Positions 9,359-59,185 of a stretch of DNA of 64,000 nt are shown piece by piece. The notes under the pieces are model-generated. The model was not told the DNA's origin. It saw only the letters and a program-made list of their open reading frames with translations, and made no database searches. This DNA comes from a virus. The stretch's first letter is position 1; each line of letters begins with the position of its first letter. The position numbers and the translations under genes are program-made. The stretch lies in IMG/VR virus record IMGVR_UViG_3300047564_004815, positions 1 through 64,000 of that record; one strand, given 5' to 3'.

Positions 9359-9769
9359 ATGTTGAACATCCAGTACACCTCCCAGTACAACCAACCCGAG
9401 CACGTCAAAACGGCGATTTCGGAGCTGTTGCCCTTGGTGGACTTTAGGACACGCTTTGTTCTGAAAGCACCCGACGACCCGACGTTCCAGCCTGACCAAG
9501 ACGACGACACCTTGCAGGTAATCAAACTAGACGCTGCGAGCGGCCAAACGACGCAGCTGCTGACCGACGGCGACGCTCAGTACGGCCGCCCTTACAAGTT
9601 CGGCGACGGCACCAGCCAAAAAGTGACACTACGCAACTGGAACTACGTGCTGCTGACCAACGAAATCCGCGGAGCCGATAATCAATATAGCTCGGTAAAA
9701 ACGTGCTATATTAAAGACCGCGAAGTATTTGCCGGGTTGCGCGTAGCCGTCGGTTTAGCCGCATTTTAA
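9359..9769 (+). CDS. Unknown virion-type protein
   Basis: 136 residues, good ribosome site (AGGAGAAACGAA before ATG), 10 bases after the IPT-like gene. Mostly beta, with an Asp-rich loop at about 43-50. No family recognised. Its place between tail proteins and the portal suggests a small structural component. Confidence 0.8.
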   Translation: MLNIQYTSQYNQPEHVKTAISELLPLVDFRTRFVLKAPDDPTFQPDQDDDTLQVIKLDAASGQTTQLLTDGDAQYGRPYKFGDGTSQKVTLRNWNYVLLTNEIRGADNQYSSVKTCYIKDREVFAGLRVAVGLAAF

Positions 9770-9778
9770 GGGTGAAGC

Positions 9779-34586: not shown

Positions 34587-34967
34587 TTACCAGCCGCGGT
34601 TCTTTGTGCTGATCCTTTTGGTGTCAACGATGGGCGCGTTGATGATCTCCGCGCGGTCTACGTCGTCTTCTGCGTACTTAGCGATGCCTTTTTGGCGCAT
34701 GTGCTTGTAAATAATCTGCGCCAGACTGTTATACACTTGGTGCACGCTCTCTGAATCGACTTCAAACACCATATCTTCGCGCGTGTTACCTTCCTCGTCA
34801 GCACGAAACACCACGACTACTTCGTTATCGGAGCAGACGAACTTTTCGATCGCTGTATAAGGAATCACTTCTCCGCGGAAGCGCAAACCATTGTGACCCA
34901 GTTCGGGCGGAAGGTCGTGGCCGACGATCGGCAACGCAAACGTAGAGAGATCCATTGGACTTGCCAT
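34587..34967 (-). CDS. Unknown protein divergent from the terminase
   Basis: 126 residues with an excellent ribosome site (AAGGAG/AAAGG). Residues about 15-95 alternate beta strands with one helix ('FRGEVIPYTAIEKFVCSDNE', 'VVVVFRADEEGN', then 'VHQVYNSLAQIIYKHM'), like a small PH-like or bacterial regulatory fold. No family recognised. First gene of the leftward head operon, divergent from the terminase across a gap of about 70 bases. Confidence 0.8.
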   Translation of the reverse strand: MASPMDLSTFALPIVGHDLPPELGHNGLRFRGEVIPYTAIEKFVCSDNEVVVVFRADEEGNTREDMVFEVDSESVHQVYNSLAQIIYKHMRQKGIAKYAEDDVDRAEIINAPIVDTKRISTKNRGW

Positions 34968-35036
34968 TTGACCTTTACTCCTTATAAAAGACGTGTTAGG
35001 ATGACCCTTGCCAGTATACGCAGCAGCGAGAAGCGA

Positions 35037-41503: not shown

Positions 41504-42460
41504 ATGAGCGATCAACTTGTAGCACTTCTAAACCTGCGCCAGCGTATTTCGACGCTTGGTTCCGGTGGCGGCGGAGGTGGCGGTGACGTCACAGTCGCCC
41601 AATTCAACGCGCTGCGAAATGCCGTGGCGCAGTTGGACCTACTCACGCCGCGCGTGAAAATCCACCCGATTCAAACCGCGACGGAAGGGCAGACCGTGTT
41701 CACGCTCCCGGACCCGTTCTCAGTTAGCACCGGGCAGCTCTTCGTTTACTCCGGCGGGGTTCTAGTCGATACCTACACCCTCACTTCACCCACTGAAATT
41801 ACGTTCACCTCTGGGCGAGAGGACGGGGAGAAGATACGCGTCGTCGAAGTGCAGCTGGGCTCAGATACCGGTACCACTGTGGTTGACGGTATAACTGCAA
41901 CGGGCTCTGTAACGTCCGCGGACTTTGAGGCGCTTGTAGCCGCTGTCGCGCTGTTGGATCGGCTCACTGCCCGCGTCAAGACATTCTCGTTCTCAGCTAC
42001 TGCTGGGCAGACCGTCTTCACCTTGCCCGAGACATACGAAGTCGGCCAGAACGCGTTACTGGTTTTTTCAGGCGGCGTGCTAGTGGACACTTACACTGAG
42101 ACGTCCCCCGCACAAATTACATTCACTTCTGCCAGGGAGCTAGGGGAAAATATCCAGATTATAAAGGTGCAGCTTGGCGCTGCGGCCGGCGTAACCGTCG
42201 TCGACGGGTTTACGCTCGGGCCTGCAATTACAGCCGAGACGCCTACTGGGCTCATAACCAGCACCGACGGCACAAATGGTAATGGTACGTTTACTGTCGC
42301 CTTCCCTGTGGACGCGGCGATTACTCCGCGCGTGCTGGTCAGCGGCCTAGAGCTTTCGCCTGTAATGTTCTCGCGTACTGGGCAGACGTTCGTCGTTAAC
42401 GCCCCGTATAAGCCTGTAATCGGCGAAACCGTCAGCATTCTCTACAAACGGAGTTCGTAA
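41504..42460 (+). CDS. Fibre-like protein with duplicated beta domain
   Basis: 318 residues. A Gly-rich linker (about 20-27) is followed by two near-identical modules of about 100 residues: 'ATEGQTVFTLPDPFSVSTGQ' + 'FVYSGGVLVDTYTLTSP' and 'ATAGQTVFTLPETYEVGQNA' + 'FSGGVLVDTYTETSP', then a third, shorter beta part. Each begins with a helix like 'FNALRNAVAQLDLLTPRVK'. This organisation (helical neck plus repeated beta sandwich) is common in phage fibre shafts and host-binding arms. Confidence 0.82.
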   Translation: MSDQLVALLNLRQRISTLGSGGGGGGGDVTVAQFNALRNAVAQLDLLTPRVKIHPIQTATEGQTVFTLPDPFSVSTGQLFVYSGGVLVDTYTLTSPTEITFTSGREDGEKIRVVEVQLGSDTGTTVVDGITATGSVTSADFEALVAAVALLDRLTARVKTFSFSATAGQTVFTLPETYEVGQNALLVFSGGVLVDTYTETSPAQITFTSARELGENIQIIKVQLGAAAGVTVVDGFTLGPAITAETPTGLITSTDGTNGNGTFTVAFPVDAAITPRVLVSGLELSPVMFSRTGQTFVVNAPYKPVIGETVSILYKRSS

Positions 42461-43678: not shown

Positions 43679-44420
43679 CGTCTGCCCCTGGTACATTTAT
43701 GCGCTGAATGATTCGTGCAGCGTTGGCGCGGATCAAGAGCAGAATCTTTTTAATGACCAAAGGGTCTTGCCGTACGCGGAAGGCAGGGATCGTCAACACC
43801 TGTAAATTCAACGTGCACTCGAACAGGTCGTCATACTCCTCAGTTAGTACCGGGCCGTTCAAATCAGGGTACCCTACGTACTGAAGGTTAAAAGCTTGCT
43901 GTATGTCTAGGCGGCTAGCGATGAGCGCGCCGCGTATGCGCTGAGCCAGCAGGGTCGCGCGTAACGAATCGCGGTCAAGCACCTGAATTTGGTAGATCAA
44001 GGTTTCGCGCACGGCCCGTCGGTCGTCTTGCGGGGCGTCTGCACCCGCCATCTTGACGGCGTCTCGCATCGCATGGGTCTCTGCCTGCGCGCGCCCAAAC
44101 TTTACGACGATTAAAGGCCGCTTATCCCGAGCGGCCATTTCGTTGCGCCGAAGGTCTTTTGCAATCAGCACCGCGGAGCGCTCCGGATCCTCGGGGAAAT
44201 AAATAAAATCGTCATCAGTCATGAACCGGTGCTCGATCACGCTGAGGATGCCACTCTGCACGAGAAGCGGCAGAAACTCGTAATTGGTTGAGGCGATTGC
44301 GCTCAGGTGCGACATCAAGGTCGCAACGGACGCCTGCGCAAACTCGTTAGGGTCGTTGTTTATTGCAAGCGGGTCGTTGCCGTTAGGGTCGGGGTAACCT
44401 GCGAATGGCTCGATCGACAT
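43671..44420 (-). CDS. Possible tail-terminator/neck protein
   Basis: 249 residues. 'RPLIVVKFGRAQAETHAMRD', 'LIYQIQVLDRDSLRATLLAQ' and 'EEYDDLFECTLNLQVLT' form an alternating strand-helix pattern like gpU/gp15-type tail-terminator or minor neck proteins that cap the tube; this resemblance is weak and positional support is limited. Start overlaps the RNAP C-half stop (TAATG). Confidence 0.62.
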   Translation of the reverse strand: MSIEPFAGYPDPNGNDPLAINNDPNEFAQASVATLMSHLSAIASTNYEFLPLLVQSGILSVIEHRFMTDDDFIYFPEDPERSAVLIAKDLRRNEMAARDKRPLIVVKFGRAQAETHAMRDAVKMAGADAPQDDRRAVRETLIYQIQVLDRDSLRATLLAQRIRGALIASRLDIQQAFNLQYVGYPDLNGPVLTEEYDDLFECTLNLQVLTIPAFRVRQDPLVIKKILLLIRANAARIIQRINVPGADDA

Positions 44421-46270
44421 TAGTACTTACCATCTTTCCCTTGCCCGAAATACTGACCGTGCACGTAAGCGGGCACGGGATTAAACGTATCCCGAATCTG
44501 CGTGCGCGCCCCCGTCGCGGCGTTTTGGCGGAAGGTCTGGTTGACGAATCGGAACGCTAGGTTAGCCATCCAGTCGTCCTTATGGAGGGCGGCGCGCTCG
44601 GTTCCGAGCATAATCGGTTTAACTATTAAACTGTTCTGCTTGAACACTGGAACGTGCGAGATGTTCTGGTCCTTCAACTGCTTAACTGTTGCGGGGGTCA
44701 AAACCGTATACGGCGAAGCAGTACCGGTTTCGTGTGCAAGGATTCGGCCTTCAGCTTTCCCTAACTCCACCGTGTCATGAGCGGTGGGTAAATGCTGCTG
44801 GATGCTATTCCAGTGCACAACTTCCCCAGGCACGTAGTCGTGCGTTCCCGGGTGAATAACTTGGCCCAAGTTCAAGATACCGCGCGTCACAACTTCGGTA
44901 ACACGTGAATTGCTACGGATACCCGCATCGGCATATATCTGCCGAAGCCTTGACGCGAAAAATTCGCGGCCCGCTTCCATGCCTTTGTGCTCAACCACGT
45001 CTACAGGGTTTATCTCGCCGTGAGATAAGGGGTCACCCTTCGCAACCCGCTGCCCAGGCTTGACTGTAACATCCAAGCCCGGTGCGACATAGTGCTTAAT
45101 GTTTTTCACTGTCACGTTGAGCCCACCTGCCGCAGCTGGCTCGACGTGCGTAACCTCGCCCGACACGTGCGCGAGCGTCGCTGCACCTGCAAACATCTTC
45201 GGCGCGTGCATAAATTGAAGGATGGTCTGGAGCGGAGATTTGCTTGCGCCCACGACGCCACCAGCGTGCTTTTGGTTCAAGGCGAGCTGGGTCAAAGGCG
45301 CGGTCAAGCCTTGCGCGGCCTTCAAGCCGACGTGCTCACCCACTGGCGGCAGCCGCCCTTCTTCGTTCAGACCGGTGCATACTGCGCACACGCCTTTTGG
45401 CGCGGTGCAGAACAACGGACTGCGTATCTTTACGACGGTGCGCTGCTTCGCCAACCGCTCCCGCATCACGTTGGTGATAATGTCATTCCGGTGCCCGACG
45501 CCCGGTACGTCCTCAGCCAACGCCCGACCAATCAAGTCCGGGCTGTTCGCGGGCAGCTCGCGGCCGTGCGTAGTCTTACAGTCGTGGTCGGTTACCACCA
45601 TATCCATGTGAATGGTGTTCAACTCTTTAGCGAACGCGCCCGGATCACGTACAGCGGTGTAGGTGTTGACCAAGCCGCGTCTAGCGCCTTGCGCGTGCAC
45701 ATAGAAGTCGATAGGGCTCATTCCCTCACTGAAGCTTCGTTGCGCGATTACCGGCAGCAGGTGATTGCTAGTATCGAGGTTTAGTCCCACCATCCCCAGC
45801 ATCTGCCTGCCCATCGACGTGTCACCGCGTGCACCGGACTTGATCCAGCTAGTCAAATTATTCGGCCGGCTCTCGATCGCTGCTTTGATGCCGTTGTTTA
45901 CGTGCTCTTCCACTTTTGCAAACAGCTCTAACTTTTTCTGCTGGAACGGTAAGCTGCGGTTCAATTCTGGATTAAGCGCAGCCTCGTGGCGCAGACGCAG
46001 CAGCTGCGGCATGTGCGACTTAAACGCGGCGTCGCGAAGGTCTGTATGAGGTTTCAGGTCGTTGATGCTGAAGCTCGAGCCCGACTCCAACGCGATCTGG
46101 TTACCGACGTCACGAAGATTTTGCACAACTGTCCCGTACTGCTTCGGGTGATGCTCGGCGATTGTTTGCAAAAGCTTACTTGTACCACCCTTATCCAACG
46201 GCCCCTGCAACGCAACGTCCGGCGGTAGCGCGCCTTGAATAAGAAGCTGCCCAATGGTAGTGGTCGACAT
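44420..46270 (-). CDS. RNA polymerase beta-prime, C-terminal half
   Basis: 616 residues of clear bacterial-type beta-prime. Residues 1-75: 'TIGQLLIQGALPPD' and 'YGTVVQNLRDVGNQIALESG' (region before the bridge helix). Bridge helix at 145-166 ('SGARGDTSMGRQMLGMVGLN'). Trigger loop at 180-222 ('IDFYVHAQGARRGLVNTYTA'). Zinc site 2: C231, C288, C295, C298, with the same 7- and 3-residue spacings as in E. coli. Then 'GLKAAQGLTAPLTQLALNQ' (309-335, as 'GviAAQSIGEPgTQLT'). The first half of beta-prime is missing here and found fused to beta at 51393-55682. Would supply the nucleotide-addition moving parts of a phage polymerase. Confidence 0.9.
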   Translation of the reverse strand: MSTTTIGQLLIQGALPPDVALQGPLDKGGTSKLLQTIAEHHPKQYGTVVQNLRDVGNQIALESGSSFSINDLKPHTDLRDAAFKSHMPQLLRLRHEAALNPELNRSLPFQQKKLELFAKVEEHVNNGIKAAIESRPNNLTSWIKSGARGDTSMGRQMLGMVGLNLDTSNHLLPVIAQRSFSEGMSPIDFYVHAQGARRGLVNTYTAVRDPGAFAKELNTIHMDMVVTDHDCKTTHGRELPANSPDLIGRALAEDVPGVGHRNDIITNVMRERLAKQRTVVKIRSPLFCTAPKGVCAVCTGLNEEGRLPPVGEHVGLKAAQGLTAPLTQLALNQKHAGGVVGASKSPLQTILQFMHAPKMFAGAATLAHVSGEVTHVEPAAAGGLNVTVKNIKHYVAPGLDVTVKPGQRVAKGDPLSHGEINPVDVVEHKGMEAGREFFASRLRQIYADAGIRSNSRVTEVVTRGILNLGQVIHPGTHDYVPGEVVHWNSIQQHLPTAHDTVELGKAEGRILAHETGTASPYTVLTPATVKQLKDQNISHVPVFKQNSLIVKPIMLGTERAALHKDDWMANLAFRFVNQTFRQNAATGARTQIRDTFNPVPAYVHGQYFGQGKDGKY

Positions 46271-46278
46271 GCTCGCTC

Positions 46279-47841
46279 CTATTGTCGCTGCGGGGCGTGA
46301 AGGGGGCGCCGTAAAAGGTCCGTCAGTTGGTTATTCAACCGTGTTTTCTTATTCGCTACCGTGTACGTCCACTCGTCTACCGTGGCCCCTGCGGCCGGAT
46401 TACGAAACATGCCAAATATCTTCGGCTGCACGCTCACGTAGCGGTTCACATGCACTTCGGGCACCGGAGAGCCCGCCCGAATGCCTCGTGCTTCTGCCTG
46501 CTGCGTCACCTCGGGGTTGAAGTTAGGGTCGAGGGTTACGTGCAAAGTAGTTCCTGGAAGGTTGAGGCCCTCCGTGCCCGCAGAGTTAATCACCATGACT
46601 CGCTTCTTGCCCTTCATATAATCGTCAATGTGTTGCAGCCGTTCGGCCTTGCCCTGGTGCGTCTGCCCGACAAACACCCCCGGCTCGTAACCGTGGTGCT
46701 TCAGGCCCGCCACCGCGGCGTCTACTCCGCCGGTCACAAGATTCGTGTAAACAATCGCTTTGTTATTCGGGTCGGCTTTAAGGTGCGAGTCTACGTCCTT
46801 CAACGCGCGCTGCAGCTTGGGTGTTGCTAGCGCGCCTGACAAGGCGTCATGCCGGGCGTCCATCGTATGCACGCTGTTCGCCACTTGGCGCGCGCGAATG
46901 ATCTTTGCCAGCATACTCCGTGCTTCGCTCGAGCTAACAGGAACGTTATTGCGAACCTTGGCCGCAATCGCTGGTGAAACATTTGCCATTGCGTAGTCGT
47001 ATAATTCTTTTTGGTGGGCGCTCATCTCTACTGGAATATTGTGCACGATTTTGCGCGGCATGTTTGTTGCCACCGCCTCTACGGGGACGTAATGAAGATG
47101 CTTATCAAGTTCCTCTTTAAGGTAGCGCATGTTTTTAAGCGCTGGCTCCACGGTCCGGACGCCCATGCCAAACGCAGCAAACGGCCCGTGCGTTTCTACG
47201 CGTTGCCCCACGTACATACGATCAAACTGTTTGGGCGTACCAAGCTTATGTTTGCCATCTGTCACGATGTCGACAAGCGGGACGATGTCGTGGGGGTGAT
47301 TCATGACCGGGGAGCCCGAAAGCGCAATAAAATTCTTCACCTTTCGCCGCGCTTCGCGCATCGCGGAAAAATTAAGCGACTGATCATTACGCCCCTTATG
47401 CGCCTCGTCCCAAATAATCGTGTCCGCTTGGGTCTTGGCGACATATGCGTGCGGATCCTTTCGGAACAACTCGTTGCTTACAACGTAGTAGTGCGCGTTC
47501 GGAAGTTCTTGGTCAATCTGAAGGCTGCCTTTTTCATTCTTCGGCCCGAATTTAAGGGCCTTACTCGTAGTGAATTTGTTTACGCCTTGTTCTATGAAAT
47601 TTTCCCGCAGGCTCGACGGCACGACGACAAGCGCGCGCTTCGCTTTACCCGAATCCCGCAAGTGCTCAAAGATGGCGGCGGAACTCAGCGTCTTACCGGT
47701 TCCGACCCCGTGCGCGAGCAAGATTGAGCCGTTGTTAGCGACCGCACGGTCTACAGCATCGCGCTGGTGCGGCTGCAGGGTCACGTCTGGCCGCAGCGCG
47801 CCCATTTTGGCGAGATAGCACTGGTACGGTGTCATGTACAT
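46279..47841 (-). CDS. SNF2-family ATPase/helicase
   Basis: 520 residues. Motif I 'GVGTGKT' (45-51), motif II DEAH (145-148), III 'LSGSPVM', V 'INSAGTEGLNLPG', VI 'QQAEARGIRAGS' (normally 'QaxxRxxRiGQ'). This order and spacing are those of SNF2-type translocases, without a specific substrate domain. N-terminus 'MYMTPYQCYLAKMGALRP' fits the 'PYxxYLxK' pattern of putative virion proteins. Directly downstream of RNR and upstream of the RNAP C-half, so it may act with the polymerase (as RapA or poxvirus NPH-I do) or be a DNA translocase; not decidable from sequence. Confidence 0.88.
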   Translation of the reverse strand: MYMTPYQCYLAKMGALRPDVTLQPHQRDAVDRAVANNGSILLAHGVGTGKTLSSAAIFEHLRDSGKAKRALVVVPSSLRENFIEQGVNKFTTSKALKFGPKNEKGSLQIDQELPNAHYYVVSNELFRKDPHAYVAKTQADTIIWDEAHKGRNDQSLNFSAMREARRKVKNFIALSGSPVMNHPHDIVPLVDIVTDGKHKLGTPKQFDRMYVGQRVETHGPFAAFGMGVRTVEPALKNMRYLKEELDKHLHYVPVEAVATNMPRKIVHNIPVEMSAHQKELYDYAMANVSPAIAAKVRNNVPVSSSEARSMLAKIIRARQVANSVHTMDARHDALSGALATPKLQRALKDVDSHLKADPNNKAIVYTNLVTGGVDAAVAGLKHHGYEPGVFVGQTHQGKAERLQHIDDYMKGKKRVMVINSAGTEGLNLPGTTLHVTLDPNFNPEVTQQAEARGIRAGSPVPEVHVNRYVSVQPKIFGMFRNPAAGATVDEWTYTVANKKTRLNNQLTDLLRRPLHAPQRQ

Positions 47842-47847
47842 ACGCTA

Positions 47848-47857
47848 ATTATCACCT
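47848..47857 (-). promoter_or_regulatory. Candidate promoter element next to the helicase start
   Basis: AGGTGATAAT on the minus strand, 7 bases before ATG 47841, immediately after a terminator. A transcript from this box would begin at or very near the ATG, implying a leaderless message. Shares GGTGATAA with 20264 and 27321. Alternatively it is only the ribosome site (AGGTGA). Confidence 0.35.
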
Positions 47858-47896
47858 GAAAATAAAAGCCACTCCCGGAAAGTTTCCGGAAGTGGC
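47858..47896 (-). terminator. Rho-independent terminator after the RNR gene
   Basis: GCCACT plus CCGGAAA (47868-47880) pairs with TTTCCGG plus AGTGGC (47883-47896), a stem of 13 bp with a single mismatch, followed on the minus strand by TTTTATTTTC. It ends the RNR message 20 bases past its stop and leaves only 16 bases before the helicase ATG. Confidence 0.88.
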
Positions 47897-47915
47897 GACC
47901 AGTACTGTTAGAGGG

Positions 47916-50900
47916 TTAGCCGCACTTAGAGAAGCCGCAACTGAGGTCAGAACACTTGCAGCAGCCTTCCTCAAACTTTAAGGCACTGCCGCAATCTGGG
48001 CACTCAGGACTCTCACCAAAAATGGTGACAGCCTCATCAACATAAACTTGCTCGGTCGACAAGCTTAAATTGCTGAACGACAACTCCGTTTGCAACGCGT
48101 CAAGAGCTTCTGAGCCGGCGCCTTGGAAGAACGCGGGAGCAGCTTTGAGCGCCTTGCCCAGACCGTCCGGGATGCTCAAGACTTTGTTCGGCCCCAAGCC
48201 CGCTTGGTCTGCGCTACGGATACCGATCAGCGTCCGTGCTACGTCATCCACCGGCGCCCCGTGCTGCAACGCCATGGACGCCAAGCGCCCAATGGCCTCA
48301 GCCAAGCTGTGGATCGTACCACCGGAGCGGCCAATCGTGAGCAGCACCTCGCGAAGACCAAGCTCGTCGTAGTTGAAGGTGGTCAACATTTTCCCGTTAC
48401 CGGTGTGGATCACGCTGGTGAAGCCCGCCAACGTCTCGGGACGCGGGCGCGGCGTACCACCCCTAGTCGCCGTAGGCACCGTGGCTTCCAACTGCGCAGC
48501 TTCGGCTAGCTCCTTGCTGGACTTTGTACCGGTGGTAAGCGGTTGGAACGAACGCGAACCGTCGCGGTATACGGTGATGCCTTTGCACCCCAGAGACAAC
48601 GCCATGTCGTACGCGTCAAGCACGTCTGCTACTGTGGCGGTGGCAGGCAGGTTAATCGTCTTAGACGTGGCCGAGTCGTTAAACCCTTGCAAAATCGCCT
48701 GCATCTTAACGTGCGCGTCAGGGCGTATGTCACCGGCGGTAACAAACACCTCGCACAGCTCAGTTAGCTCTTCTTTGCCGAGCCAGTAGTCTAGCGCGCC
48801 CGCAGCTGCAGCCGCGTCTACCGAGCCTTGATGCCGCGCCACGATCTCAAGAATCTCATCGCGTTCAGCTTCGTTAAACGCCGAGAGCGCCGCTACAAAC
48901 TCTGGATCGCCGTCGCGCATCTCCAAGCCAGCCTGGAAACGCGAAAAGACTAAGCCAAACAACGGCTCGCAGCCGCCAGTTGTGTCGTGAAACACCGACA
49001 ACGTCCCTGTTGGCGCAATCGTCGTGGTCGTCGAGTTGCGAATACCGGTTTCGGTAACTCGGGTTTGGCACTCGACGTAAGTGTCCATGATATGGTGCCA
49101 AATCGGTTCCAGCGCTCTTACGGCGTTATCGGAAGCCGTCTGCGCCTTTTCAATTCGACGCGCCAGCAGGTCTTGGTGGAACGCAACCGACTCGTCCCAA
49201 TTATTTACAAAATAGGGATAGGCGCCGCGCTCAGTCGCCAAGTCGATAGACGCGCGCTTGGCCTCGGCGTCGATAAACGCGTACAGCGCAGCAGCTGTGT
49301 TGCGGCCTTCTCTTGAATCGTACGCAAGCCGCAGTTTGAACAACGCCCGTGCAAGGCCCATAATACCGAGCCCGAGCTTACGGGTAGTCATAGCGATCTC
49401 TTTAATTTGTGGAACTTTCGGAACGTACGCGTTGGCTTCTACCACGTTGTCCATAAACCGAATACTCAGATGAACGGCCGCGCGCAAACCTGACCAGTCA
49501 ATAATCGCGTCGGGCCCGGAGCCAATAACGAACTGGTCCAACGTGATTGAACCTAAGTTGCACGACTCGTAAGGAATCAAAGGCTGTTCCCCGCAGTTCG
49601 CAGACAGTATCCCGTCGTGCTCACCGCAGGCGACAAAGTACCGGTGCGTGTCGTCTACGGTCCCGTTGTACACGTCCGCAAGCTCGCCTGTTCTTACAAC
49701 TTTTACAACTTTGTGGTTTACAACAGCCTGGTCTTTTTCAGGACGAACCCAGCCTAGTCGTTTCATAACAGTGTATTTTGAGCAGCCCACTTCAGCGGCT
49801 ATTTGCTTAAAGCTCTTGCCACTTTCCCGAAGAGCGGTCAGCTGAGCGTCGTCGAGGTCGCGACGATAACGGCCATTGTTTTCACCGTCTGTAGGGATTA
49901 AGTAGAGCGGGTTACGCTCGTCCCAGACACCGTACATAGGGTTCTTATCGCCCTGCATGTGCTCCGAGTTATGCTCAGTACCTAGCTTAATTTCAAGATT
50001 CGTAGGCCGGTTGTCACTTCTATCCTCGTTAATGTGGTGACAGTGTTCAGCCGGATAGTCAGGGCGCCGGCCCGTGTGGCCGCTGACCATGACGTGATGG
50101 TACAGCGGGGCCTCAATGCCGTTCGATATTCTCAGGTAGCCTTTCGTGTTTGCCTTATACCGGTAAACGCTCATCAAAGAGTCGTTAGGTTTCAAGTCTT
50201 GAACTTGAACCTTCATACCGTTCCGCAGGTACAAATTATGGTCTAATGTGGCCTTCAAGACTGTACCGTCGTCCAAATGTAGCTCTGCAACCTCAACCGC
50301 CTGCCGGGTTAACCGGGGCGCGCGCATCAGCTTGACCACGAAATTACCTTGATCGTCTTGGGACAACACTTGTACACCGGTGCCGCGCTCCGCAAGGTCT
50401 TTGAAAGAGACGTGCCCGTCAACAGTCCATACCTGCGTGTCCCCAGTCCAGCACGGATTTGTCGCCTCGTACGCACCCAATCTTGGAACAGGGTTGTCAC
50501 GGTTCATGCGGTCGATAAAGGCCAGACCAGGCTCGCCTGTTGCGTGTGCCCGCTCCGCGATGTGGCGCCACACCTCACGCGCGCTCAGAAATTCCCCCGT
50601 CGGTCCCGAGCGCGGATTGATTAACTCGTAGCGGTCGTCGTCGGCTTCGAGCGCCGTCAGGAACGCGTCAGTGACTGCAACCGAGACGTTAAAGTTTGTC
50701 AGCTGCGACAAGTCGCTTTTGAGGTCAATGAACTCCAAAATGTCAGGCGAGTCGACACGCAAGATGCCCATGTTCGCGCCGCGCCGAATACCGCCTTGCT
50801 TAATAGCCTCTGTGGCGGCGTTAAAAACTTTCATAAAAGGAACTGGCCCGGAACTCGCGCCTTTCGTGCTGCCCACAGTGTCGTTTTTGGGCCGCAGGCG

Positions 50901-51317
50901 CGTGAAAGCGAAGCCGGTTCCGCCACCTGTTTGATGTATAAGCGCCGCGTGCTTTATCGTGTCAAAAATGCCGGAGAGGTCGTCTTCCACAGGCAGTACG
51001 TAGCACGCGCTGAACTGGCCAGTCCGGATACCCGCGTTGGCAAGCGTCGGCGAGTTAGGCAGAAACTGCCGCCCGCGCATCAATTCAAAAAAAGCTCTGT
51101 GGAGCTCTGCAACTTTATCCGCGCCGCCAAACGCGGCTTCGGCCGCCGCCATCACTTCGGCAGTGCGCCAGTACATCCCGTCTACGTCTTCTAAAATTGT
51201 CTGGTCGTCTAACTTGTTGAAATAACGTTTCTCCATGACACTGACGGCGTTTGCCGACACCGGCGGCGCGGTTTCGACCCACGCCTGGACATCCGAAGGT
51301 AAATCCGACAAAAACAT
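47916..51317 (-). CDS. nrdJ: Class II (B12-dependent) ribonucleotide reductase with intein
   Basis: 1133 residues as translated, 847 after intein removal. Start at 51317 (GAGGT 6 bases upstream), not 51341. N-terminal part has 'FLPNSPTLANAG' and 'FSACYVLPVEDDLSGIFDTI'; central 'HQTGGGTGFAFTRLRPKND' and 'KQGGIRRGANMGILRV' are class II hallmarks; the catalytic-Cys loop 'NPCGEQPLIPYESCNLGSI' is formed across the intein. C-terminus carries 'CPDCGSALKFEEGCCKCSDL', the redox/zinc tail. It reduces NTPs to dNTPs via adenosylcobalamin. A terminator follows, then the SNF2 ATPase. Confidence 0.93.
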   Translation of the reverse strand: MFLSDLPSDVQAWVETAPPVSANAVSVMEKRYFNKLDDQTILEDVDGMYWRTAEVMAAAEAAFGGADKVAELHRAFFELMRGRQFLPNSPTLANAGIRTGQFSACYVLPVEDDLSGIFDTIKHAALIHQTGGGTGFAFTRLRPKNDTVGSTKGASSGPVPFMKVFNAATEAIKQGGIRRGANMGILRVDSPDILEFIDLKSDLSQLTNFNVSVAVTDAFLTALEADDDRYELINPRSGPTGEFLSAREVWRHIAERAHATGEPGLAFIDRMNRDNPVPRLGAYEATNPCWTGDTQVWTVDGHVSFKDLAERGTGVQVLSQDDQGNFVVKLMRAPRLTRQAVEVAELHLDDGTVLKATLDHNLYLRNGMKVQVQDLKPNDSLMSVYRYKANTKGYLRISNGIEAPLYHHVMVSGHTGRRPDYPAEHCHHINEDRSDNRPTNLEIKLGTEHNSEHMQGDKNPMYGVWDERNPLYLIPTDGENNGRYRRDLDDAQLTALRESGKSFKQIAAEVGCSKYTVMKRLGWVRPEKDQAVVNHKVVKVVRTGELADVYNGTVDDTHRYFVACGEHDGILSANCGEQPLIPYESCNLGSITLDQFVIGSGPDAIIDWSGLRAAVHLSIRFMDNVVEANAYVPKVPQIKEIAMTTRKLGLGIMGLARALFKLRLAYDSREGRNTAAALYAFIDAEAKRASIDLATERGAYPYFVNNWDESVAFHQDLLARRIEKAQTASDNAVRALEPIWHHIMDTYVECQTRVTETGIRNSTTTTIAPTGTLSVFHDTTGGCEPLFGLVFSRFQAGLEMRDGDPEFVAALSAFNEAERDEILEIVARHQGSVDAAAAAGALDYWLGKEELTELCEVFVTAGDIRPDAHVKMQAILQGFNDSATSKTINLPATATVADVLDAYDMALSLGCKGITVYRDGSRSFQPLTTGTKSSKELAEAAQLEATVPTATRGGTPRPRPETLAGFTSVIHTGNGKMLTTFNYDELGLREVLLTIGRSGGTIHSLAEAIGRLASMALQHGAPVDDVARTLIGIRSADQAGLGPNKVLSIPDGLGKALKAAPAFFQGAGSEALDALQTELSFSNLSLSTEQVYVDEAVTIFGESPECPDCGSALKFEEGCCKCSDLSCGFSKCG
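49596..50453 (-). other. Intein with HNH endonuclease in the RNR
   Basis: 286 residues, replacing nothing: the host reads 'EATNP' + 'CGEQPL', with intein residue 1 = Cys289 ('CWTGDTQVWT', block A) and last residue Asn574 ('HDGILSAN'), followed by Cys. Block B 'VLKATLDHNLYL'; block F 'VYNGTVDDTHRYFVACG'. HNH region 'EHCHHINEDRSDNRPTNLEI' and a helix-turn-helix ('SFKQIAAEVGCSKYTVMKRL') follow. The penultimate residue is Ala, not His. Insertion within the RNR active-site loop is a well-known intein site. Confidence 0.9.
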
Positions 51318-51392
51318 AGCTACCTCTAATAAAGCGAGCACGACAAACGCGTCCTTTTAAACGCGCGCGTAGGGGTACCTGCGGCAAACTAC

Positions 51393-54300
51393 CTATTCGA
51401 TCGAAATCGGATCGTTAATACGAATCCGTCCCTCTCGGTAAGCAGCGATTGCCTCCTCTTTTGTCCGGAACCGTGCTACGGGGCTGCTACCCTGCGGCGC
51501 GGTCGCCTTCCACAAACCCAGTACCGTCTCTTGCGACGGCACGTGCATTGGCGCATGATTTAGTGGGTTAAACAAGTTGTTTGACGGTAACATTTTGTAA
51601 ACATCCTTGACGCCTTCCGGCGTAACGGGAATGTTCACACCCATCTGGTCTCCGTCAAAGTCAGCGTTTAAGCCCTTCAGCACCAACGTGTTCATGTGTA
51701 AACTCTTTCCGTCAACAATACGGGGCTTCAGCCCCACCAAATTAAACTTATGCAAACTAGGTGCGCGGCTCAGGACGAGAGGAGTTTTGGCCATCACGTT
51801 TAGCACCGCTTGAGAAGCTGTTGGCGTCTTATCCTCGAAATGGCGGGCGGCTACCGGCAACGGCATACCGCCCTGAACAAGATCACCTATCGCGTGGTTG
51901 CGATAAATTTTCATAGCCATGTCGTGGGGAATTCCAACTTCATCTATACCAAGAGACGGATCGGGAACGATAACCCCGCGGCCAGTAATGTCCTGGCGGC
52001 GGCTAAGAAGTTTGCTTTGGAAATAACCATCTTTTGCCTGCCCGCTTCCTGCAATCACTTTCAGGAACCCTTGTGCAGGTCGTTCACCTCGCATGTTTTC
52101 AACCACCGGGTCAAGCCCCTGCACTTTTTCAAACGCCTCGTGTAAACCCTTGCGTAGGTCCCGTATCGTGGTAGGGTCGCCGATCTTTTTATGCTCTGTG
52201 AGCTGATCGTTGACCAACATCAGCGATTTGTACAGGTGATTTGCGTCAGATACTACGAGGCGGCCAGTTTCGGAATCAGGGTATATTGGCCGCATAGCGG
52301 GAGGAATTACCGGAACGTGATTCAAAATGTAAGCGTCTTGCGGTTTTAAATCTGCTTGGTCTAAAGCTTTAAGAAACTTTAATTGTTTGTAGATAGCGTC
52401 CTTTTTTGAGACAGAATTAGTGCTGTTTACTTCTGAACTTAGTTGTTTGATCTTAGTCTTTACATCAATCTTTGATAACTGTTCTTTAATGTGTTCGGCG
52501 CCGTGGTTGTATAGCGTATCAGCGTATGACTGCTTCGTCAAGCCCAGCAGCGTACGCGTTGCGTTAGCGAATAAAGGGTTGACAATCGGCTCCGTCAAAT
52601 TGATGTGCGACCAGCGGTTGCCGACAAGGCCGCCCGTGCTACGGGTGTCGAAAAGTCCACCCTCTTCGGGACGGTAAGGCAGGCCGGTCGTAGGATCAGG
52701 TTTATCGTGCACCGTTAGCGGCTGCGTGACTGCGCCCGAAGACATGGTTAGCACGTCCTTGTTAGTCATCGGAAGCAGCGCAATCGAGTTGCCTTCCTTT
52801 TTAAGGTTCAAGCCCATACCTTGAAGCATACCCTCAAACTTTTTGAACGCAAACGTGGGCTTTGCCGGCGGCAGCGGCTTGCCCTGCCACATGGCCTGGA
52901 GCACCTCGGGGTTCGCTTCGCTCTTGTGCTGCACGTCCTGTAACAGCGCACGGCTGCCTTGGGCGAGAAGACTGTACAGGTCAAGCGTGCCGATGCTCTT
53001 GGCGCCTTCTTCGCCGCCTTTCGCTGGTCGAAGGTCAATGTCGTACTCGCCGCCAGACCGCGCGCTAAACCCGGTTTCGGCCTGCTTGAACAGCTTCAGC
53101 ATGTACATCGGCCCCATCAACGTACGGCCAAGAGAACGCTTCGTAGTCGGATCAAAAAGCTCCTCGGTTCCATCCGTGCCCGCCTTACGCGCCAGCTCGT
53201 TCACTTTTTCCCAGACGTTCCCGGTTTGAAAGTGCGGAAATACTTGCTGCTTGATTCCAAGCTTCTGTAACGACTTAGCGGCAATCGTCTCGAATATCTG
53301 CCCGTTGTTCATACGTGAGGTCAACCCGGCAGAGTTCAGGATCACGTCGGGGATCTGCCCGTCGGCAGTCCGTGGCGCCTCGTGGTCGGGGATGATTGCA
53401 GAGATGACGCCTTTGTTACCGTGCCGACCTGAAAGCTTGTCCCCGACCTGCACTGTGGCTTTGGCGGAGATGGCGACTTTTATCCCCTCGGGCGTCTTCT
53501 CCACCGCCATGACTTTTCCTTCGTACGGCCGGTCCCACACGACGGCCTTATTTGCGTAGGGCTGGCGGAAGCCTTTGTTTGCGCGCCCGAGAATCAACTC
53601 TTCCGGCGTAACGAGGCGTTTGCGCAAGCCCAACATAATAGGGTCGCCGTTCGTTAACACCTGCCCGACCTTCACAACGCCGTGCTCATCCACCTTCGCA
53701 AAGTGCTTATTTTCAAACTCGGTCGGGAAGTGCGCCTTGAACTTCGCCAAGTCAAAAACGGAGCGTTCGTCAATGAGCGCCTCTTCGGTGTGCAGGTGCT
53801 GGCTGACCAGCTTGTCGGCGCCTTGACGCGTCACCACGATCGCGTCTTCGTGGTTCAGTCCCTTATACGGCATAAACGCGACGGTTAGATTTTTACCGAG
53901 TGCAGCAGCAGCGCCGGTCGTAAAGTTGTTGCCCGCGAGCAACTGCCCGGGTGTCACCTTGTCGCCAGGCTTGACTTGCAGGTCGCCGTGCAAGAAACTG
54001 CCGCCATTCAAGGGAAACTCGTGCGGGTAGTTTACTTTGACGACTTGCCCTTGGGCGGTCTTCAAATGAATGACACCGGGATCAATTTTGTGAACAGTGC
54101 CTGCGGCGGGGCTTCGTACAACGAAGTCTTCCAGCGCGTTACGCGCAAACGGCGTGTCCACGATTGGCGGTTCGCGGTCCACTAAACTTACTGCCTGCCC
54201 CAGCATCTTCGCGCCCATCGCAGCGCGGTGCGCGTGTGTCGACTGGATGAACGGCACCATGGTGGTAGACACTGTGAACTGCGAACCTGTCGGAATGCGG

Positions 54301-55682
54301 TACTGTACGTGCTGCGGCTTGGCGTCAATCACCATACCCTGGTGCACTGCGCGCACCAAGCCGTGCTCTGTCGGCTCCGTATCGTGCGCAACGACCGAGT
54401 CGAAGAGTTCAACCGGCGTCTTGAACTCGGGTTTACCTGTCCGTGCGTTGAGCACGCGGGTCATTAACTGCTTACCCTGCTTCGTAGCACTCAGCGCAAG
54501 ACGCACGTCCACGCCCGCGCTGGCGTTGTCGGGCGTACGTACGGGGTCGATAAACCCCATGCTTGATGGGTGAACGGCGCGAACCTCCGAGCCGATCGCG
54601 TGGGTATCACCAATTGCGCCCTCGCCCAGAGACGACAGTTTAAACGCGTTTTCCTTCATCTCAAGCGGGTTAATTTGCATGACGTGGTTAGACTGCGCGG
54701 ACTGCGTGAAAAACTGATCAATGAACGGCTGCACATACCGGTGGAGGCCCACGTCCCCCAGCGCTTCGGCTTTATCCACGCGAGGGCGAAGTTTATACGC
54801 CAAGTTAAACCGGTTTTTCTCCAGTCGTTCGCGCACGAAATCTTCGACGCCGTGAATCTCCGTAAACGCGAGCTGGTCTTTACCCGTCGGGTCTTTTTCT
54901 TTCCGGTGCACTGCCAAGACTTGTTTCGCAGCGGCCTGCAGCACGGGCGCGGTTATTTTGTCGGCCTCAAGGCCTAAAGTTAAACGGTTGACCCCGGGAT
55001 CCATCTGCACATTGTGAAAATACTCGCGGATATTTGTCCGCAGCTCTGGCAGCGCCGTCGGCACGGGCTTGTTTGGTTGAATCATGCTGTGCATTGTACT
55101 GAGCGCCGCGTGCTCGTCTTTCTCCGAAAACGGCGTGTCGAAAGCCTTGCCCAAGCCTAAACTGTCGGCACCGAGAACGTGCTTCAGCACTGGGTTTAGC
55201 GGAACGCGAGTGTTGCCGAACTTGATGTTGAACTGATTTGCTTCGGGGTCGAGGGTCAGCGCGAAGTTCCGGCCTTTTGCCAAGTTGAAGTCTGCGACAG
55301 CCTCGCCAAGACGATTAACTTTGGTGTACGCTGCCGGCCGCAATCGCCGTTGCATGTTCACCTGGTACTCCTTACCGTTAATGACAAACGTGTGCCGGTT
55401 CGTAGGTGTGGGCAGAAAACCAATCCGCACAACCTTTTTGTCCAGCAGCTTGTTGTCGGCCCCGTGCATGGCTACAGTGGCCTTGACAGGCACGCCCCAA
55501 GTTCCGCCAGACATGATCGCCTGCTTCTGCCCGTTGTAGTCCGTCGGGTCAGGCATATCCGGCGCGTGAACCTGCGTCACTGTGAGCGTGCGGTTCGCGT
55601 TGGTCACCACAGGGAAAGTGTTTTTAACGCCCTCACTGAACTGGTGCATCATGGCTTGAAAAGTTTCTTGAGGTGTACGCAC
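51393..55682 (-). CDS. RNA polymerase beta fused to beta-prime N-terminal half
   Basis: 1429 residues, GTG start. Beta part (1 to about 985): 'TFVINGKEYQVNMQRRLRPA' (98-117), 'AFMPYKGLNHEDAIVV' (E612, D613), 'GDKLSGRHGNKGVISAII' (747-764; K749 and K757 contact the nucleotide), 'LNSAGLTSRMNNGQIFETIA', and the C-terminal 'MLKLFKQAETGFSARSGGEY'. Beta-prime part (about 1000-1429): 'GLFDTRSTGGLVGNRWSHIN' with no first zinc ribbon, 'VVSDANHLYKSLMLVNDQL', 'LLSRRQDITGRGVIVPDPSL', and catalytic 'NADFDGDQM' with D1341, D1343, D1345. It ends shortly after 'MHVPSQETVLGLWKAT'. The rest of beta-prime is a separate gene. Catalytic residues are intact, so it should be active. Confidence 0.95.
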   Translation of the reverse strand: MRTPQETFQAMMHQFSEGVKNTFPVVTNANRTLTVTQVHAPDMPDPTDYNGQKQAIMSGGTWGVPVKATVAMHGADNKLLDKKVVRIGFLPTPTNRHTFVINGKEYQVNMQRRLRPAAYTKVNRLGEAVADFNLAKGRNFALTLDPEANQFNIKFGNTRVPLNPVLKHVLGADSLGLGKAFDTPFSEKDEHAALSTMHSMIQPNKPVPTALPELRTNIREYFHNVQMDPGVNRLTLGLEADKITAPVLQAAAKQVLAVHRKEKDPTGKDQLAFTEIHGVEDFVRERLEKNRFNLAYKLRPRVDKAEALGDVGLHRYVQPFIDQFFTQSAQSNHVMQINPLEMKENAFKLSSLGEGAIGDTHAIGSEVRAVHPSSMGFIDPVRTPDNASAGVDVRLALSATKQGKQLMTRVLNARTGKPEFKTPVELFDSVVAHDTEPTEHGLVRAVHQGMVIDAKPQHVQYRIPTGSQFTVSTTMVPFIQSTHAHRAAMGAKMLGQAVSLVDREPPIVDTPFARNALEDFVVRSPAAGTVHKIDPGVIHLKTAQGQVVKVNYPHEFPLNGGSFLHGDLQVKPGDKVTPGQLLAGNNFTTGAAAALGKNLTVAFMPYKGLNHEDAIVVTRQGADKLVSQHLHTEEALIDERSVFDLAKFKAHFPTEFENKHFAKVDEHGVVKVGQVLTNGDPIMLGLRKRLVTPEELILGRANKGFRQPYANKAVVWDRPYEGKVMAVEKTPEGIKVAISAKATVQVGDKLSGRHGNKGVISAIIPDHEAPRTADGQIPDVILNSAGLTSRMNNGQIFETIAAKSLQKLGIKQQVFPHFQTGNVWEKVNELARKAGTDGTEELFDPTTKRSLGRTLMGPMYMLKLFKQAETGFSARSGGEYDIDLRPAKGGEEGAKSIGTLDLYSLLAQGSRALLQDVQHKSEANPEVLQAMWQGKPLPPAKPTFAFKKFEGMLQGMGLNLKKEGNSIALLPMTNKDVLTMSSGAVTQPLTVHDKPDPTTGLPYRPEEGGLFDTRSTGGLVGNRWSHINLTEPIVNPLFANATRTLLGLTKQSYADTLYNHGAEHIKEQLSKIDVKTKIKQLSSEVNSTNSVSKKDAIYKQLKFLKALDQADLKPQDAYILNHVPVIPPAMRPIYPDSETGRLVVSDANHLYKSLMLVNDQLTEHKKIGDPTTIRDLRKGLHEAFEKVQGLDPVVENMRGERPAQGFLKVIAGSGQAKDGYFQSKLLSRRQDITGRGVIVPDPSLGIDEVGIPHDMAMKIYRNHAIGDLVQGGMPLPVAARHFEDKTPTASQAVLNVMAKTPLVLSRAPSLHKFNLVGLKPRIVDGKSLHMNTLVLKGLNADFDGDQMGVNIPVTPEGVKDVYKMLPSNNLFNPLNHAPMHVPSQETVLGLWKATAPQGSSPVARFRTKEEAIAAYREGRIRINDPISIE

Positions 55683-55684
55683 GG

Positions 55685-56974
55685 TCAGATGGCCTCCGAC
55701 GCTTCTACAGCTTCGCCGTTCATCGCTCTGTGCATGTCCTCGAGCTCTTTTGCTGTGTTAACTTCCTCGGTTGCGGTGAGCCCGTACCTGTCCATGCTTA
55801 ACGTAGGCACCCGGCTCTGAAAGAAATGCTTCCGCTCGTTGTGCGACAGTGCGTTACCGAGCACCCCAGCGGTCATACCCGCCAGCGACGCGTTGGTCGC
55901 GGCGTTTAGCACGCGTAAACCGGCGCCTGTTCCAGGTCCCACATGACGCGCTAATTCGCGAACGGCCGCGTGTGGGCGCGCTAAACCGTATGCGGCAGCC
56001 AGCACGGATGGCCCCGCGGTCATTAAGTAGGGGTGTCGCGCCATAAATGGGATGCGCTCCCCTGATTCCTGCTCAAATTTATGTACCGCTTCATCGTGCT
56101 TTTTGACACGCGAAACGGCTCGTGTCAACGCGCCAGCTCCAAGCCCGAGAGCCGCGCCGCCCAGTAAGCCCGCGACGCCGCCCCCGGCGCGCACGGTACC
56201 TGCGCCCAGCTCCTTCGCGAGGTCTGGTACATGGCGCACTAGCGCGTGCGCCGCTGCTAGCCCCGCTAAGCCTCCCAAGGTCGCGCCGCCGGCCGCAAAA
56301 TTCAAATGCTGACCCCGGCGTGTTGCTGACTCCTCGATGTTTTGCGGCCGCTCAACCAGCCCGGGGTGCAACAGCCGCGGATCCGCGAGTACCGCAGCTG
56401 ACTTGCCCATCTGATACGGGGCAAAATAAGCTTCACGAGCCGCCTGTGCGTAGTTCGCCGCCAGTGGCGTCACCGTGAGCCCGCTAGCGAGCGCCCCAAC
56501 GCCGGCACCAGCGAGGCGGCCTAGGCCGATACTTGGAGCAGCGAGCGCGCCCACAGCCGCGCCGGCCAACACTGGTGCGGAGTTGACGAGGTACGGGTGC
56601 CTCTCCATAAACGGTAGCACTCGGCCCGTCTGCTGTTCAAACTCATGAGCCGCCGCTGCGTGGCGGTTGAGCTTATCGTTGAAGCGCTGCGCAACGGCCG
56701 TCGCCCACCCTAACCCCCCTCCGATAGCCATAGCCGTTCGTACCGCGTCTGGGCCGGTAAGCGCCGCTACTCGCCTCGCATTCGCAGGGCTGCTGCCCCA
56801 ACGAGTACTTGGCAGCAAGCGATTAAGGGCGAAAGTCCCTGCGCCACCCAGCGCGGCGCCGACCACTGTACCGAGGAATCTTTTATCCGCGCGCTCCTCG
56901 CCCGCCTCTAGCGCGGCTTGGCCTGACGGCTTGGCTGCAAGATTTGGATGAAGCAGGATACGATCAAATGACAT
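55685..56974 (-). CDS. Gly-rich protein with two HPY repeats
   Basis: 429 residues, RBS AGGAG. Two repeats of about 170 residues: first 'GRVLPFMERHPYLVNSAPVL' (about 140), second 'GERIPFMARHPYLMTAGPSV' (about 306). Each repeat has a 'FALNRLLPSTRWG'/'LAAAHALVRHVPDLAKELGA' helix, an Ala/Gly-rich zipper, then the HPY motif and another Gly-rich helix, so up to four or more hydrophobic segments. Adjacent to two more proteins with the same motif. Likely an internal or membrane-inserting virion protein, directly upstream of the RNAP fusion gene. Confidence 0.85.
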   Translation of the reverse strand: MSFDRILLHPNLAAKPSGQAALEAGEERADKRFLGTVVGAALGGAGTFALNRLLPSTRWGSSPANARRVAALTGPDAVRTAMAIGGGLGWATAVAQRFNDKLNRHAAAAHEFEQQTGRVLPFMERHPYLVNSAPVLAGAAVGALAAPSIGLGRLAGAGVGALASGLTVTPLAANYAQAAREAYFAPYQMGKSAAVLADPRLLHPGLVERPQNIEESATRRGQHLNFAAGGATLGGLAGLAAAHALVRHVPDLAKELGAGTVRAGGGVAGLLGGAALGLGAGALTRAVSRVKKHDEAVHKFEQESGERIPFMARHPYLMTAGPSVLAAAYGLARPHAAVRELARHVGPGTGAGLRVLNAATNASLAGMTAGVLGNALSHNERKHFFQSRVPTLSMDRYGLTATEEVNTAKELEDMHRAMNGEAVEASEAI

Positions 56975-56994: not shown

Positions 56995-57660
56995 CTACGC
57001 CGTATAAATTGAGTCGCTGTCTTCTAGCTCATTTGCACGCAACTTTAGGTGCGGGAAAGCGTCCGCTAGTTGGTCGCGTCGCATCTTGTTAATGAGCGGC
57101 TCCGCTAGGGTGCTCCCGATCGCGGCCCCTAACCCCAACCCCGCTACCGGATGCCGCCCTAGCGCGGTGGCGGCGGCCGCGCCAACGGCCATACCCGCCG
57201 GCCCCGCGATGAATGGCGCTGCCATGGCTGCAGCGTAAGGGTGCCGCACCAAAAAGGGGAGCGGTTTACCGCCATGCGCATAATAGTTATCCACGGCCGC
57301 CTGATGCTTGTGGACCTTATCCAGCGTACTGGTGACGGCGTGCGCACCTACGCCTGCGATCGAACCAAAAGACGCGCTAACAAGTGGCGCGACCGCATGC
57401 GCGTAGCGGGCCAAAACACGCAGGGACGGGTCGCTGACAGTCTTAGGGATAAGTTTTCGCGCAAGCAGCCCCGCTCCTGCGCCTAGTGACGCCCCTATAC
57501 CGATTTTCGCTGCAAGGGCTTCGCGGCGATCCGCCAGTTCGTTGAGGTCCGCCGGAGCGTTGCCTTTCCACGGGTAGCGCAAAATTGTGTCGGGCGCGTA
57601 AGGTTCGGGCGGTGCGGCTGCCGCGCGCTTTAAGAGGTACAGGTGATAAGGTAACGACAT
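56995..57660 (-). CDS. Gly-rich protein with one HPY repeat
   Basis: 221 residues, RBS AGGGAAGGGG. N-terminus 'MSLPYHLYLLKRAAAAPPEP' fits the 'PYxxYLxK' pattern. Contains 'GKPLPFLVRHPYAAAMAAPF' at about 137-156, matching the HPY motif of the 55685 product, followed by a long Gly/Ala hydrophobic stretch. Same orientation and spacing as the 429-residue family member, of which it is about half the size. Confidence 0.85.
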   Translation of the reverse strand: MSLPYHLYLLKRAAAAPPEPYAPDTILRYPWKGNAPADLNELADRREALAAKIGIGASLGAGAGLLARKLIPKTVSDPSLRVLARYAHAVAPLVSASFGSIAGVGAHAVTSTLDKVHKHQAAVDNYYAHGGKPLPFLVRHPYAAAMAAPFIAGPAGMAVGAAAATALGRHPVAGLGLGAAIGSTLAEPLINKMRRDQLADAFPHLKLRANELEDSDSIYTA

Positions 57661-58381: not shown

Positions 58382-59185
58382 CTAACTCCGTAAATAATCT
58401 ACAGCGCGAGTATAGCGTTGCGTCTGCTCCGCAATTTCCGTGCGTAGCGCCTGGATGCGCGCGGGCGTTACCTTAAGCTTTTCCGCGAGTTGCTGCCCGC
58501 TTAACACTGGCGCGCCCTTGTACCCGACGGTGTGTTCGAACACCACTTTGTGCACAGGGCTGAAATCGTGGTGCAAAAAGTCCAGCACCATTTCCCGGTG
58601 GCCAGTTTGTTCCATAGCCGGCTGGTTCGCTCCCGCAGCTTCGGTGGCGGAATACAGGCTCGTTTGCGCCCGGTGCAGGTCGCCTAGCCGGTGCGGCGCA
58701 ACACCGAGGCGCTGCGCAATTTGCGTCGGTGTCGGTTCCGTACCGAGCTCTAGGCGTAAGTCGGCTTGTGCTGTTATCGCCTTATTCCGCATATACGCGC
58801 GATCAAGGGGCATGCGAACATCTGACCTGTGCGTCATTACAAACCCGTCTAACTTCCGTAAGTGGTTTGTAAAGTGCGTGCCCAGCGTACCTTTAGCAGG
58901 GTCGTAGCTGGGCAGGGATTGCGCCATCAAACGCTTTGCTTCCGCCTCCAAGACGACCCGCGGCAGCCCTGACGCCTCCCACCGCGAGACCTCGCGATGC
59001 ACTAACGGCGCGTACTGCTCAAAAACTGCGTTAGCTGAATTCTTTTTCGGCGCGGGGCTTTCCGTAGCCGCCGCTCCGGTGCTCGCCACACTATCGGCGC
59101 CTAACATCTGCTCCTCGAACGAGGGGCGCTTGACCGCAGGTTTGGCAGCCTGTTTCTTTTTAAGCTGCTCAATAAAATTAGCCAC
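58382..59185 (-). CDS. Second sigma-70-like protein (phage sigma 2)
   Basis: 267 residues, GTG start. About 55-115: 'YAPLVHREVSRWEASGLPRV' and 'YDPAKGTLGTHFTNHLRKLD' resemble region 2 (helix, then 'kg.F.tya...i...l'). About 140-175: 'LELGTEPTPTQIAQRLGVAP' is a clear region 3-type 'LGrePT..EIA..Lg'. About 230-250: 'VLSGQQLAEKLKVTPARIQA' is a candidate region 4 helix-turn-helix. The N-terminal 50 residues are Ala/Lys/Pro-rich, unlike host sigma factors. Located directly among virion-type genes near the RNAP fusion; overlaps the next gene by 8 bases. Confidence 0.76.
   Translation of the reverse strand: MANFIEQLKKKQAAKPAVKRPSFEEQMLGADSVASTGAAATESPAPKKNSANAVFEQYAPLVHREVSRWEASGLPRVVLEAEAKRLMAQSLPSYDPAKGTLGTHFTNHLRKLDGFVMTHRSDVRMPLDRAYMRNKAITAQADLRLELGTEPTPTQIAQRLGVAPHRLGDLHRAQTSLYSATEAAGANQPAMEQTGHREMVLDFLHHDFSPVHKVVFEHTVGYKGAPVLSGQQLAEKLKVTPARIQALRTEIAEQTQRYTRAVDYLRS

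Follow-up and report, generated by a model that had tools for sequence, protein, structure and literature searches.

The two polymerase chains of the locus

The stretch of DNA analysed here (64,000 nucleotides, positions 1 to 64,000 of the IMG/VR virus record IMGVR_UViG_3300047564_004815; hereafter the window) encodes an RNA polymerase (RNAP) of bacterial type in which beta is fused to the N-terminal half of beta' and the C-terminal half of beta' is a separate protein. The fused protein (chain A; 51393–55682, minus strand) is an open reading frame of 1429 amino acids (aa) with a GTG start, along which the Pfam domains Rpb2_3, Rpb2_6, Rpb1_1, and Rpb1_2 follow in that order. In phmmer comparisons with PDB sequences, residues 81–961 matched bacterial beta (Synechocystis, E = 5e-68) and residues 1059–1428 matched bacterial beta' (E ~1e-53). 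The beta part (residues 1–961; 52800–55682, minus strand), delimited by Rpb2_3, Rpb2_6, phmmer, and alignment, is a complete beta, including the double-psi barrel with equivalents of K1065 and K1073. The beta' N-half (residues 962–1429; 51393–52799, minus strand), assigned from Rpb1_1, Rpb1_2, alignment, and key residues, contains the clamp, recognisable clamp helices (the landing site of sigma), the rudder, and the double-psi barrel, with the NADFDGD catalytic motif placed by alignment and a residue table at residues 1339–1345 (51648–51668, minus strand). The three Asp of this motif are invariant among the five fused sequences aligned.

The separate beta' C-half (chain B; 616 aa; 44420–46270, minus strand; Pfam Rpb1_4 and Rpb1_5) reaches the natural C-terminus of beta' and corresponds to beta' from about residue 660 to beyond 1160 (M. 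tuberculosis / Streptomyces numbering; phmmer, E = 3e-41). It carries the bridge helix (residues 186–223; 45602–45715, minus strand), predicted as a single long helix, the zinc site 2 cysteines C231, C288, C295, and C298 (45377–45580, minus strand), and the trigger loop region (residues 314–343; 45242–45331, minus strand), and in a 22-sequence alignment the four cysteines and trigger-loop Q328 and H335 are invariant. A sequence-only reading of the locus had proposed both a 1429-residue protein running from beta through NADFDGD and a separate 616-residue protein with the bridge helix, trigger loop, and zinc site 2, and the Pfam, phmmer, and alignment results bear out each part.

Aligned jointly with Salmonella RpoB+RpoC, chains A and B form one collinear polymerase. 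At the fusion point, the C-terminus of beta (...GMGLNLK) is continued by the N-terminus of beta' (...GNSIALLPMTNKDVL), ~18 residues having been lost, and the N-terminal zinc ribbon of beta' (C70, C72, C85, C88) is deleted in the five clade members aligned. At the break, chain A stops just past ‘ARVKVRI’ and chain B starts just before ‘TTVGR’, so that a ~20-residue linker is gone; the C-terminal end point of chain A is the same within 3 residues across the fused sequences aligned. Single-chain AlphaFold2 models are of moderate confidence (predicted local distance difference test scores of 75–76; chain B, 75.8), and Foldseek matched their folds to bacterial beta and beta', the root-mean-square deviations being large because the chains were folded singly. 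In the model of chain A the fusion junction takes the form of a helix and then a hairpin of two strands, within a well-predicted stretch, as if a short turn connected the ends of beta and beta' that lie together in cellular RNAP.

The collinear beta and beta' regions, DxDxD, bridge helix, trigger loop, and beta lysines together mark the enzyme as a bacterial-type RNAP, in keeping with the sequence-only reading, which had placed it nearer to bacterial than to phiKZ-type enzymes. The same reading had all catalytic residues kept. This holds for the three Asp of DxDxD, beta' R425/P427, the zinc site 2 cysteines, trigger-loop Q929 and H936, and, in beta, E813/D814, R678, K1065, K1073, and R1106, and fails for trigger-loop R933, beta H1237, K1242, and R540, and several residues of the rifampicin pocket, which are altered. 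The altered pocket predicts an enzyme insensitive to rifampicin.

Relatives and comparison with known polymerases

A tblastn search of 50,697 phage records recovered the complete fusion protein in Salmonella phage Arash (OQ632216; gp206, with gp216 as the beta' C-half) and in Vibrio phages D69, D148, and D181, at 32–34% identity to the window. Arash and D69 have the same division as the window, with a fused beta-beta'N of 1525–1527 aa and a separate beta'C of 606–609 aa; the Arash authors annotate the two Arash proteins simply as beta (gp206) and beta' (gp216), with no mention of the fusion in their text (PMC10585845). D148 and D181 matched in two pieces flanking a homing endonuclease, and a group I intron (Rfam) splits the D181 fused gene (L005:13476–13756) at beta residue ~480, a site shared with the metagenomic locus L028 (L028:11497–11778). 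A second group I intron occurs in L005 at 9679–9886.

A profile scan of IMG/VR yielded 66 loci and a scan of GTDB genomes three contigs from metagenome-assembled genomes (MAGs), which were sorted using local hidden Markov models for beta, beta'N, and beta'C. Among the 56 phage loci complete enough to classify, some of them near-duplicates, the beta-beta' fusion was universal (56/56), with the polymerase on one chain in 3, on two chains as in the window in 23, and on three chains in 30. In the three-chain form, beta is fused to only the first ~80–100 residues of beta'; the middle of beta' is a ~385-aa protein whose gene has a start of its own, and beta'C is the third chain. The one-chain form (L009:9980–16084, L018:9947–16081, and L070:9914–17128) is a single polypeptide of 2035–2405 aa, close in sequence to bacterial RNAP; the beta of L070 contains a LAGLIDADG-type intein, read from the sequence, with no Pfam call. 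Within the two-chain set the beta'C partner was found in 19 and two contigs were too short; the label is provisional for two MAG contigs with a fused chain (L071 and L072) because their MAGs yielded a beta' of cellular size and no phage-type beta'C. The arrangement, which the sequence-only reading had treated as a one-off, thus recurs in four phage isolates and in dozens of IMG/VR contigs. Three candidate relatives, OR846602 (L075), L073 (from GTDB), and L076, were rejected on account of their ordinary, separate rpoB/rpoC and served as the bacterial outgroup. OR846602, OR844998, OR849902, and similar GenBank phage records apparently carry ordinary bacterial rpoB-rpoC, probably host contamination.

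The closest comparisons each match part of the arrangement. RNAPs of the phiKZ/AR9 type resemble the window in a beta' broken after the double-psi barrel, the lack of alpha, and an SNF2/Rad25-type helicase near the beta'C gene (PMC7598289, PMC7824862). In these enzymes, however, beta itself is split, beta and beta' are unjoined, and no sigma factor is encoded. In alignment, AR9 beta'N (gp270) ends ~35 residues earlier than chain A. Cyanobacterial and plastid RpoC1-RpoC2 are likewise broken between the double-psi barrel and the bridge helix, with RpoC2 residue 14 aligning with residue 25 of chain B. In that enzyme, unlike the window, beta is separate and alpha is present. The common beta' split site of phiKZ-type and cyanobacterial RNAPs has already been published (PMC7598289).

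The sequence-only reading knew of no precedent for a fusion combined with a detached C-half, but one exists in the yeast killer-plasmid RNAP, where K2ORF6p and K2ORF7p supply a beta-beta' fusion and a separate C-terminal part of beta' in a complex that contains an SF2 helicase (PMC6211774). The yeast break nevertheless lies downstream, between beta' a15 and a16, and the clamp is mostly missing, whereas the window is broken upstream of the bridge helix and its clamp helices are present; the yeast virus-like element also has a capping enzyme where the window has sigma (PMC6211774). Because of this more downstream break and largely missing clamp, the likeness is one of convergence and not of membership. 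When the fusion was cut apart, the resulting yeast element failed to take the place of the wild type (PMC6211774).

Bacterial-like beta and beta' in IMG/VR Caudovirales contigs were surveyed by Weinheimer and Aylward (2020) as mReC RNAPs, with no fusion described in the text (PMC7481178). That survey very likely overlaps the fused clade, although three-chain and Arash-type members would not pass its inclusion filters (beta' of at least 800 aa, NADxDGD) (PMC7481178). Both barrels also share one chain in the Helicobacter and Wolbachia fusions, crAss gp66, and the P23-45 RNAP. The Helicobacter and Wolbachia fusions keep the whole of beta'. Unlike the window enzyme, the single-chain RNAPs crAss gp66 and P23-45 are highly divergent (PMC7886860, PMC10770324).

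Associated transcription genes, virion evidence and proposed working

A gene for an SNF2-family ATPase (46279–47841, minus strand; Pfam SNF2-rel_dom) adjoins that of the beta' C-half, and a sigma-like protein of 267 aa (sigma-like protein 1; 58382–59185, minus strand) is encoded in the same gene run, upstream of the fused RNAP. This position of sigma is conserved in L001, L002, and L007, which share with the window a run of a ~1300-aa protein (w1388), sigma, fused RNAP, SNF2, and beta'C, together with a 249-aa protein; the RNAP and SNF2 genes are also kept in L008. A second sigma-like protein (291 aa; 18975–19850, minus strand; Pfam Sigma70_r2, 5e-13) is encoded at a distance from the RNAP genes and weakly matches Arash gp196 (phmmer, 8e-4). 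Sigma region 2 was present in nine of ten clade records tested, and the tenth, a one-chain phage, encodes a relative of the upstream sigma, as do two of the three one-chain phage records overall. Alpha (PF01000) was found in none of the 10 clade genomes or records searched, some of which are fragments, compared to 13 of 14 control genomes.

The window encodes homologues of four proteins of the Arash particle: gp206 (fused chain), gp216 (beta'C), gp217 (SNF2; phmmer, 4e-53), and the sigma gp10 (matched by sigma-like protein 1; phmmer, 1e-9). In mass spectrometry of the Arash virion, gp206 was the most-detected protein (128 unique peptides/3516 spectra), and gp216 (40/1210), gp217 (38/1148), and gp10 (24/467) were also recovered (PMC10585845). 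On the rough measure of spectra per residue, computed here from those counts, gp206 (2.31), gp216 (2.00), gp217 (2.43), and gp10 (2.00) all exceed the portal (1.51), values that fit a stoichiometric transcription complex in the Arash particle. Packaging in the virion of the window phage would follow by analogy. The virion evidence, the one- and three-chain relatives, and the loss of the zinc ribbon had no place in the sequence-only reading.

Taken together, the window probably encodes a sigma-dependent, alpha-less phage RNAP with a two-chain core and an SNF2 partner, packaged in the virion and delivered for early transcription. Chain A, with beta joined to beta' through a tight hairpin, would supply both double-psi barrels, and chain B the bridge helix, trigger loop, zinc site 2, and beta' tail; because the bridge helix and trigger loop are on chain B, the active site would exist only once the two chains have assembled into the catalytic core. 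The sigma-70-family protein at 58382–59185 would sit on the retained clamp helices and recognise promoters. The SNF2 ATPase is expected to work with the polymerase and may act like RapA, a role proposed for such a helicase in phages of the phiKZ group (PMC7824862). The fused RNAP, beta'C, sigma, and SNF2 would enter the cell with the DNA, allowing early genes to be transcribed independently of the host RNAP. With alpha absent, the beta-beta' join plausibly aids assembly. A broader account, in which a single clade carries its RNAP in one to three chains as a packaged sigma holoenzyme with SNF2 and the fusion replaces the alpha scaffold, is offered more tentatively, at somewhat less than even likelihood.

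Several observations weigh against the packaged, sigma-dependent enzyme. Sigma-like protein 1 is weak in Pfam (Sigma70_r3, 7e-5, just below the cut-off), and there was no convincing shared promoter motif upstream of the window-genome and Arash genes. In relatives, N458 of NADFDGD and trigger-loop R933 are variable. The virion proteomics come from a single phage, Arash, 33% identical to the window protein, spectral counts are an approximate gauge, and the Arash authors allow for carry-over of abundant proteins (PMC10585845). If the Arash peptides were such carry-over, the enzyme could instead be an active, non-virion polymerase, produced after infection for middle or late genes. Phages of the phiKZ type do have a second, non-virion enzyme (PMC7598289), and the 75-kb record of the window, itself a fragment, contains one RNAP set, so that no separate virion enzyme is seen. 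This alternative is unlikely, as the four transcription proteins surpass the portal per residue while other Arash helicases and the ligase were detected with 2 unique peptides each (PMC10585845), and the Arash RNAP genes are located among virion genes.

A further Arash virion protein, gp7 (226 aa; L078:7425–8105), bears a free-standing version of the beta'C zinc-site-2 domain and matches the beta'C of many relatives (phmmer, 1e-6 to 1e-8). A weak match resembling gp7 was present in the record of L065 (G012:85420–85668). It may be a fragment of RNAP that has been co-opted as a protein of the virion or as a tether.

History of the partitions and neighbouring genes

In a tree with bacterial outgroups, the fused enzymes were monophyletic (Shimodaira-Hasegawa-like approximate likelihood-ratio test [SH-aLRT] support of 100), the three-chain (SH-aLRT, 98) and one-chain (SH-aLRT, 100) forms each made up a single group, and two-chain forms occupied the deepest positions. 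Phages of the Carin-5/GN1 type, with separate beta' and beta genes, branched outside the clade on a long branch. A ~35-residue segment at the break is common to bacterial and two-chain enzymes and absent from the one-chain enzymes, which are therefore derived. The simplest history would be one beta-beta' fusion and one break after the double-psi barrel, followed by an extra break in the clamp and a re-fusion. This order of events is tentative, since a long stem separates the clade from bacteria and rooting inside the clade is poorly supported (several forks <95). The same long stem could suggest that the split enzyme survives from an ancient polymerase of several parts and is not a re-cut bacterial-type enzyme, as has been held for phiKZ-type RNAPs (PMC7824862), and Weinheimer and Aylward favour an ancient origin for mReC enzymes (PMC7481178). 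For the fused clade this is improbable, given that the three-chain and one-chain forms each arise once, within the clade, and that the one-chain form is the derived one.

Slightly less probable again is that a protease cuts the fused chain into an ordinary beta and beta' N-half. Virion proteins of phages are often processed, and the full peptide coverage of gp206 by mass spectrometry is compatible with cutting; the junction, however, is modelled as a tight hairpin without a flexible linker and is kept clade-wide, even in three-chain forms with a new break elsewhere. A frameshift or assembly error merging separate genes, which the sequence-only reading had named among the findings that would overturn it and for which only the rarity of the arrangement speaks, is refuted by the open frame and by its recurrence: 22 other loci, phage isolates among them, share the fused gene, and its end points agree in further loci.

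As a re-partitioned bacterial-type enzyme, the RNAP of the window and its relatives is best seen as a phage multisubunit RNAP of a new variety, with several ways of dividing its chains and, probably, a role in the virion. Taken singly, each half of the rearrangement has a precedent: the break resembles that of phiKZ-type and cyanobacterial enzymes, and a fusion with a detached end occurs in yeast. In a search of mostly open-access literature, without bioRxiv, no paper was found on this clade, its partition series, or the combination with sigma. Known phage multisubunit RNAPs are either highly divergent single chains (crAss, P23-45) or heavily split and sigma-less (phiKZ), whereas the fused clade resembles bacterial RNAP closely enough for a residue-by-residue comparison, apparently combines a virion polymerase with a sigma factor, and shows a fusion, breaks, and an apparent re-fusion within a single tree. 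Through this clade one could ask by experiment which cuts and joins are tolerated by a core RNAP, how the enzyme assembles when alpha is missing, and by what route a polymerase of ~2,000 residues gets from the virion into the cell; Arash and D69 are cultured members available for such work.

Between the two RNAP genes lie the SNF2 ATPase, described above, and a ribonucleotide reductase (RNR; 47916–51341, minus strand; Pfam), as the sequence-only reading had stated. No RNR was found at the corresponding position in L001, and the enzyme is therefore taken as a passenger with no functional part in the RNAP unit. It contains an intein (~49587–50411) with HNH endonuclease and helix-turn-helix domains. 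Two related Gly/Ala-rich proteins (55685–56974 and 56995–57660, minus strand), encoded between sigma-like protein 1 and the fused RNAP, have hydrophobic stretches and a place conserved in L002 and L007, and could be internal or ejection proteins. The terminase large subunit (34893–37886, plus strand), homologous to Arash TerL, carries a LAGLIDADG intein (~35367–36491). A 318-aa protein (41504–42460, plus strand) contains two similar units of ~100 aa (...TVFTLP...LVFSGGVLVDTYT...) and is probably tail-associated.

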